Assembly: GCA_012521705.1 (NCBI GenBank)
Contig: JAAYLX010000049.1
Span: 62,001 to 126,000, forward strand
Reading direction: 5' to 3'
Length of the DNA stretch: 64,000 nucleotides
Origin: Clostridiaceae bacterium
GTDB lineage: Bacteria; Bacillota; Clostridia; DSM-8532
The translations under genes and the position numbers were made by a program. Numbering within the stretch: position 1 is the first letter of the stretch; each line of letters begins with the position of its first letter. The notes below the pieces were generated by a model. That model was not told the origin of the DNA. It did not search any database and was given only the letters and a program-made list of their open reading frames with translations. Positions 16,312-40,612 of the stretch are shown here, piece by piece.

Positions 16312-16470
16312 GTGCAAGTGGCAAATCCGCAATTGAAAGGTATTGTTGTTTGGGTAAGTGTAAATTGCTCTGTCTTTTGAACAATCCGCAATATAGTTGT
16401 TTTGATGGGCGCAAATGTTCTGCCGTTTGCGCGTGAGCCGAGGACATTAAAAATACTGTGCCACTTGCAC
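16312..16470 (+). repeat. MITE-like inverted-repeat element, copy C
   Basis: 159 bp bounded by GTGCAAGTGGCA (16312-16323) and its exact reverse complement (16459-16470). The right end (GAG-CGAGGAC then ACTGTGCCACTTGCAC) matches copy B at 40361-40566. The left end matches B after a 12-bp deletion and then AATCCGCA. The middle is diverged and contains a second left-end-like segment (16355-16390). It is non-coding, between the propeller operon and the carboxypeptidase gene. Confidence 0.75.
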
Positions 16471-28658: not shown

Positions 28659-28790
28659 AACCGCACAGCCGTGAATACTACATAAAAACACAACTGATGC
28701 CGGAGCACCTGCAACGTTTGGTTTTCCAAACAGTCACAAGTTTAATCAGTTTCCTGCGGGAATACTGATCTCTACAGCATTACTAGCTTC

Positions 28791-28859
28791 ACTCATAGTC
28801 AAACAATTTAAGGTTGCTTGGTAGAAACTTCCGCCCCATATCGGCAGAATTATATGAGT
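28791..28859 (-). promoter_or_regulatory. Purine riboswitch aptamer, guanine type
   Basis: The 69-nt aptamer has its P1 helix formed by ACTCATA and TATGAGT. The conserved core segments are TATAATTC, GATATGG, GTTTCTACC and TTTGACTATG. The discriminating base before P1 is C (GACTATG), which selects guanine/hypoxanthine over adenine. It lies upstream of pbuG on the same strand. Confidence 0.93.
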
Positions 28860-28886
28860 TAATCGCACTATTAAATTGACATAAAC

Positions 28887-37187: not shown

Positions 37188-37394
37188 GTACAAGTGGTAC
37201 AGCCTTTTACGCGTCCTCGACTCAGAAAAGTTGTAAGGCTCAATACTCGCTCTCTTGGGGTACGCGGGCGAACTTGCCATCCGGGCAAGCGCCGCTCAAT
37301 CGACATCCTGTCGATTGACCCCAATCGAGCTTCGCATTTCGCCAACAACTTTAAGCTTCGTCTGCGGATTGCTTAAAGACTGTACCACTTGCAC
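37188..37394 (-). repeat. MITE-like inverted-repeat element, copy A
   Basis: 207 bp, reverse orientation relative to copy B at 40361-40566 and about nine-tenths identical to it. The ends are GTACAAGTGGTACAG and CTGTACCACTTGCAC. The interior contains a perfect 9-bp hairpin (CAATCGACA, loop TCC, TGTCGATTG, around 37297-37317) and a second one around TTGCC/GGCAA. TTGGGG/CCCCAA and AAGTTGT/ACAACTT pairs nest outside them, so the whole element can fold on itself. No target-site duplication is evident. Confidence 0.85.
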
Positions 37395-37414
37395 ATGAAC
37401 ACTGATAAACCAAA

Positions 37415-37572
37415 CCTTCGACTGCTGATTGTTCAGAGCCGTTTGCACTTAAACATCCATTATAAAGCAAAAGCAGCTCGGTGGAAGTCCTTTCTAACAT
37501 CCACAATCGAGCTGCACATTTCGTCAATAGTTTTGTCTTCACCTTCGAATTACTCAATGGCTCAAGCCATTT
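37415..37572 (-). repeat. Degenerate fragments of the inverted-repeat element
   Basis: Read on the minus strand, 37447-37415 is a decayed left end (GTGCAAACGGCTCTGAACAA, then CAGCAGTCGAAGG). Positions 37572-37500 match the left half through GACGAAATGTGCAGCTCGAT, compared with GGCGAAATGCGAAGCTCGAT in copy B. They abut copy A and end just before pdp. Confidence 0.55.
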
Positions 37573-40107: not shown

Positions 40108-40360
40108 TTTTATTTCCTCCATAAGAACAAGATTATAAAATCTTACTCATCTTATTAATTTTAAAGTTTAAGGTAACAACCTTAAAGATAATATTTTTAT
40201 TCTTCTCTAATTTTACCTTTTAATTTCTATTGCAAAACATTAATTTATTCGATAACCCTAAAACCCCTAAGAACACAAGCCTCGAGCCATATAGTATTCC
40301 TTGACTGATGTTGGGAAAATGCTGAACCTTCGTACATAATTGTATTGCAAATCAGTAAAA

Positions 40361-40566
40361 GTGCAAGTGGCACAGTCTTTAAGCAATCCGCAGACGAAGG
40401 TTAAAGTTGTTGGCGAAATGCGAAGCTCGATTGGGGGCGATCGACAGGACGTCGGGCGAGCGGCGCTTGCCCGGATGGCAAGTTCGCCCGCGTCCCCCAA
40501 GAGAGCAAGCATTGAGCCTTACAACTTTCCTGAGTCGAGGACGCGAAAAGACTGTGCCACTTGCAC
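40361..40566 (+). repeat. MITE-like inverted-repeat element, copy B
   Basis: 206 bp with perfect 20-bp terminal inverted repeats: GTGCAAGTGGCACAGTCTTT at 40361-40380, and its reverse complement at 40547-40566. The GC-rich core (GGCG..TTGCC, GGCAA..CGCC) is much richer in GC than the flanks. It is the best-preserved copy. Sequence just outside the right end continues to match the outside of copies A and C (reading inward on the complementary strand, a G-C-T-rich AGCTGTGCT), so the true unit may extend about 10 bp further there. Confidence 0.88.
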
Positions 40567-40612
40567 AGCACAGCTTCCCTGAGTCAAGACATGAAAAGGA
40601 AGAGCCTTTGCA
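40567..40612 (+). repeat. Partial terminal repeat next to copy B
   Basis: CCCTGAGTCAAGACATGAAAAGGAAGAGCCTTTGCAC echoes the right end of copy B (CCTGAGTCGAGGACGCGAAAAG, then ACTGTGCCACTTGCAC) and lies immediately after it, like a decayed tandem copy of the end. Confidence 0.5.

Follow-up and report, generated by a model that had tools for sequence, protein, structure and literature searches.

The 206-bp repeat that occurs twice in the window, the 64,000-nucleotide stretch of Clostridiaceae DNA analysed here, is explained best, and with moderate confidence, as belonging to a family of scattered palindromic elements, each non-autonomous and about 206 bp long and together numbering more than 20 copies, that encode a putative CsrA-binding RNA hairpin homologous to the TwoAYGGAY motif (RF01731). 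This interpretation draws on features read from sequence: a long covarying stem, a tip of two hairpins with GGA loops, a high copy number and absence from the orthologous sites of congeners.

The two full copies lie at 37188..37394 on the minus strand (copy A) and at 40361..40566 on the plus strand (copy B), the strand given being the one that carries GGA. They are 92% identical over 206 bp, which agrees with the original prediction of a pair about nine-tenths identical. Copy B is bounded by inverted repeats on the plus strand, the left one (40361..40380) being 100% complementary to the right one (40547..40566). The host Clostridia genome (2.25 Mb in 59 contigs), which was examined by searches and in selected stretches, contains about 20 copies of nearly full length by BLAST (84-94% identity) and 23 matches to R2, a covariance model built in the present analysis, giving a genome-wide number above 20. 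R1, a core covariance model trained on the host-genome copies alone, recognizes the cores of copy A at 37223-37359 (-, 165.9 bits) and of copy B at 40396-40532 (+, 163.9 bits). The 12-mer GTGCAAGTGGCA has 12 exact occurrences in the host genome versus 0 for its reversed control, and a second end type, GTGCAAAGGCTCTGCC, is found at 34 sites with at most 2 mismatches versus 0 for the control. A single bounding sequence had been proposed for all copies; copy A departs from it, as its ends, GTACAAGTGGTA and TACCACTTGCAC, carry 2 and 1 mismatches to the 12-mer. Among named genomes, the exact core of the repeat was found in only one other MAG, Clostridiaceae bacterium isolate AS20ysBPTH_144, and searches of plasmids, phages and viral contigs returned no match.

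A segment at 16312..16470 (+), first regarded as a third, diverged copy, shares only the ends of the element. Its end segments correspond to model positions 172-208 (13.8 bits) and 3-33 (7.1 bits), it lacks the tip hairpins, its folding is modest (z -2.7) and an R1 search of the window to E = 1 does not report it. On these grounds we dropped it as a full family member; it is a relic or an end-only array. Partial units also accompany the full copies. Next to copy A are a decayed left half (37467..37571, -; model 6-111; nhmmer 44.2 bits, E 4e-13) and a weak, decayed left-end unit (37413..37447, -; model 2-42; nhmmer 9.6 bits, E 0.015). Next to copy B are a right-end unit repeated in tandem about every 49 bp (40570..40612, +; model 162-207; direct repeat D2, spacing 49) and a possible decayed right half with a weak match (40265..40330, +; nhmmer 11.9 bits, E 0.003). 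The left half at 37467-37571 precedes a full copy in a nested arrangement that recurs at locus L006, where the nested left half spans 1714-1834. At L006, L015, L019 and L021 an older copy survives as a left half beside the full element, accompanied by tandemly repeated right-end units about 49 bp long.

Full copies fold as one long hairpin on either strand, with z-scores of about -11 (-10.9 for copy A and -11.2 for copy B, whose long stem has a minimum free energy of -118.6 kcal/mol). The tip forks into two hairpins with the loops CAGGA(C/U/A)G and CCGGAU. Within copy B, hairpin 1 (40438..40458, +) exposes AGGAC closed by a C-G pair (CAGGACG, GGA at 40447-40449) and hairpin 2 (40460..40491, +) exposes CGGAU, likewise closed by C-G (GGA at 40473-40475). 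The counterparts in copy A, on the minus strand, are hairpin 1 at 37297..37317 (CAGGAUG loop, GGA at 37306-37308) and hairpin 2 at 37264..37295 (CGGAU loop, GGA at 37280-37282).

Covariation is seen in the stem both within the host genome and across families. Across 18 aligned host-genome copies, standard pairs occupy 96.5% of cells versus 35-40% in slid controls, and compensatory changes affect 9 of 46 pairs (35 cells), a level that 0 of 500 shuffles reach; the cross-family alignment has 43 of 46 pairs covarying, with a covariation of 0.41 versus 0.05-0.08 for slid controls, and pair counts lean towards structure because the A2 and A3 alignments were fitted to the model. The outer arms change together as well, with GGCAAAG in both arms of L006, GAACAAG in L009 and GGTACAG in L004. 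The differences between copies, previously described as scattered rather than clustered, are not simply scattered insofar as many of them are compensatory changes inside stems. This evidence for a folded strand could in principle reflect single-stranded DNA; we favour RNA because of the loop motif and the co-occurrence with csrA presented below.

A scan of the window at Rfam gathering scores returns a purine riboswitch alone (aptamer RF00167, 86.8 bits, 28776-28877, minus strand). For the repeat, the sole relevant Rfam match is TwoAYGGAY, which scores 24.5 bits on copy A versus a gathering score of 43; hits to rox1 and snoZ30 were judged to be chance. Two loci from relatives, L043 and L044, reach 32.4 and 31.3 bits with RF01731, both below 43, and genome G000 yields no RF01731 match at E 0.1 under strict filters. 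The reverse search is also positive: in other families, R1 recovers RF01731 hits with E 1e-8, and R2, with E-values from 2e-14 upwards, recovers many that had no part in its training. Because forward and reverse profile searches agree, the window family is a divergent branch of the TwoAYGGAY superfamily. The two share a long basal stem, a junction with two adjacent covarying hairpins that each bear a GGA-Y loop, a similar length and a high-copy dispersal. They differ in that the basal stem and terminal repeats of the window copies are unrelated in sequence to those of TwoAYGGAY, and in that the window-type loops are CAGGAY and CCGGAY, which retain GGA and depart from the literal AYGGAY. Since both the score and the literal loop motif fail, the window family should be kept apart from RF01731 proper. 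The earlier remark that the repeat was not recognised as a described family is correct with regard to the gathering score and has to be revised with regard to kinship.

TwoAYGGAY is a dispersed repeat as well. RF01731 hits are multi-copy in many Clostridia (27 in G046, 11 in G051 and 8 in G056), and a scan of 393 sampled Clostridia genomes, whose stricter filters cap its copy counts, is positive in 34. Twenty hits were folded together with their flanks, and most of them form a long palindrome with the same two-hairpin tip at its centre. Genome G051 contains closely spaced inverted pairs that recall BIME arrangements, at L075 (1510-1645, - and 1781-1917, +) and at L081 (1511-1647, - and 1921-2056, +). 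The papers on TwoAYGGAY consulted here treat it in their main text as an RNA motif, and we found no description of it there as a dispersed repeat. What is new here is the divergent, unannotated branch, the MITE-like dispersed-palindrome nature of the superfamily and the test of csrA co-occurrence with its flagellin caveat; the CsrA hypothesis for TwoAYGGAY is already known, having been proposed independently in 2014 by Gardner and colleagues (PMC4333381).

The link to CsrA begins with the loops. In the alignment of 75 copies, 70 of the first loops and 73 of the second retain GGA, while the stems that close them vary completely. In 19 of the 20 full copies of the host genome, loop 1 has the sequence CAGGA(C/U/A)G, which matches both the hairpin-loop repeat of CsrB, CAGGA(U/A/C)G, and the core of the CsrA SELEX consensus RUACARGGAUGU (PMC7652899). 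The repeat therefore resembles the CsrB, CsrC and RsmX/Y/Z RNAs of Gammaproteobacteria in presenting GGA in hairpin loops that match the CsrA motif, loop 1 being equal to the CsrB repeat (PMC7652899). The comparison is one of loop motif: CsrB-type RNAs concentrate numerous sites within a single gene or a handful of genes, whereas the repeat offers two per copy in more than 20 dispersed copies. Its stems are longer and more stable than those of most CsrA SELEX ligands.

The host genome encodes csrA, directly adjoining fliW, a flagellin-like gene and flgK. Across the 393 Clostridia genomes, csrA was detected in 32 of 34 RF01731-positive genomes versus 103 of 359 others (Fisher p 3e-14) and, by genus, in 24/24 RF01731-positive genera versus 81/219 overall. 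All csrA-positive genomes of this sample are also flagellin-positive, and motility or lineage could account for the co-occurrence because csrA nearly coincides with flagellin genes. When only flagellin-positive genomes are considered, the RF01731 excess is 32/135 with csrA versus 1/16 without (one-sided p 0.09), and an association independent of flagellin is not demonstrated in this subset. Five flagellin-positive genomes of one genus in family f53 (G113, G189, G279, G376 and G400) have neither a csrA match nor a TwoAYGGAY match and constitute a natural control group to separate CsrA from motility. Within the host's own family, every genome with at least three copies has csrA; it was not seen in three relatives with 1-2 copies (the drafts G005, G011 and G029), all of which retain GGA, so that loop loss was not observed in these csrA-negative relatives. 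One copy in the csrA-positive genome G012 (L113, 1501-1638) has the first loop CCAUAUG instead of NGGA.

The distance from the phosphopentomutase gene to the next gene is about 680 bp here; five congeners that lack the element have 177-319 bp at this position, and for this reason the insertion, or the array containing it, is lineage-specific, the comparison being made at about 70-76% identity, where exact junctions are beyond resolution. Terminal inverted repeats, multiple copies, empty sites in relatives and the lack of credible coding capacity, the last as originally proposed, all place the repeat close to bacterial MITEs, which are similarly short, non-coding and dispersed. It differs from them in being palindromic throughout and not at the ends alone, and in two negative results. 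No target-site duplication was found: whatever the offset, 3 identical flanking bases occur in no more than 2 of 18 copies, the boundaries of decayed copies being uncertain. Nor did the host genome yield a transposase with matching ends, its end motifs lying within remnants or intergenic copies with no ORF between them. From the three options first listed for the repeat (MITE, REP/BIME-like repeat or structured RNA), what stands is a structured-RNA family dispersed like a MITE. A purely selfish DNA element, its tip folding as single-stranded DNA to be recognized by a transposase or replication enzyme and its GGA loops serving as recognition marks with no RNA function, is in our judgement rather unlikely, even though inverted ends, dispersal, lineage-specific sites, nested and tandem end units, the lack of a detected promoter, and an absence of strand bias with avoidance of divergent promoter regions would all suit it. 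It is opposed by the missing target duplication, by the absence of a bracketed ORF among the further end motifs examined, and by loops that specifically match the CsrA motif and co-occur with csrA.

Gene context, based on simple ORF calls, bears on two further explanations. Copies lie between convergent genes 24 times and between divergent genes 5 times (binomial p 3e-4); in co-directional gaps 25 are antisense and 17 sense, which reveals no clear strand preference towards neighbouring genes, and 23 of 78 loci are upstream of a same-strand gene. No promoter or terminator above chance was detected at the copies, and no T tract follows the hairpin. This distribution is more in keeping with tolerated dispersal than with a fixed role as a leader. 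The convergent enrichment and the very stable hairpin would agree with REP/BIME-like 3'-end structures that halt transcription or shield mRNA ends, with incidental loops, and the repeat does resemble REP/BIME sequences in being intergenic and palindromic, in tending to gene ends and in sometimes forming inverted pairs in relatives (L075). We nevertheless consider such a role improbable: at about 206 nt versus 20-40 nt, with no T tract and both orientations at gene ends, the element departs from that class, and its two-hairpin tip has loops that count as some of its best-conserved parts when families are compared, loops which a terminator or mRNA stabilizer would not need. A cis-regulatory leader, the type under which Rfam lists RF01731 (Cis-reg), is disfavoured and appears highly improbable; the loci upstream of a same-strand gene are compatible with it, whereas most loci have an antisense gene downstream, neither a promoter nor an expression platform is seen, and Weinberg et al. 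marked the TwoAYGGAY motif as probably not cis-regulatory (PMC2864571).

Under the preferred explanation, a dispersed palindrome encoding a CsrA-binding hairpin, copies would be transcribed by read-through or from flanking promoters, as no promoter of their own was found. The two GGA loops of one transcribed copy may occupy both RNA sites of a CsrA dimer. Each copy would then serve as a decoy or, in untranslated regions, as an element responding locally to CsrA, and together the copies would supply additional CsrA sites throughout the transcriptome. CsrA in Firmicutes has been described as antagonised by the protein FliW (PMC8523840). We tentatively propose, as a possibility that goes further, a mobile palindromic family across Clostridia with a conserved CsrA-binding hairpin pair, whose amplification would scatter CsrA sites as a distributed RNA antagonist alongside FliW and whose new insertions would rewire the CsrA network. 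TwoAYGGAY has had no assigned function since 2010; its recognition as a palindrome dispersed in high copy, together with the unannotated branch described here, accounts for the scatter of its genomic positions and allows the CsrA proposal to be tested directly in any carrier that can be cultured. Should the proposal hold, it would add RNA decoys to a regulator described as antagonised by FliW and would exemplify a mobile repeat that bears binding sites for a global RNA regulator.
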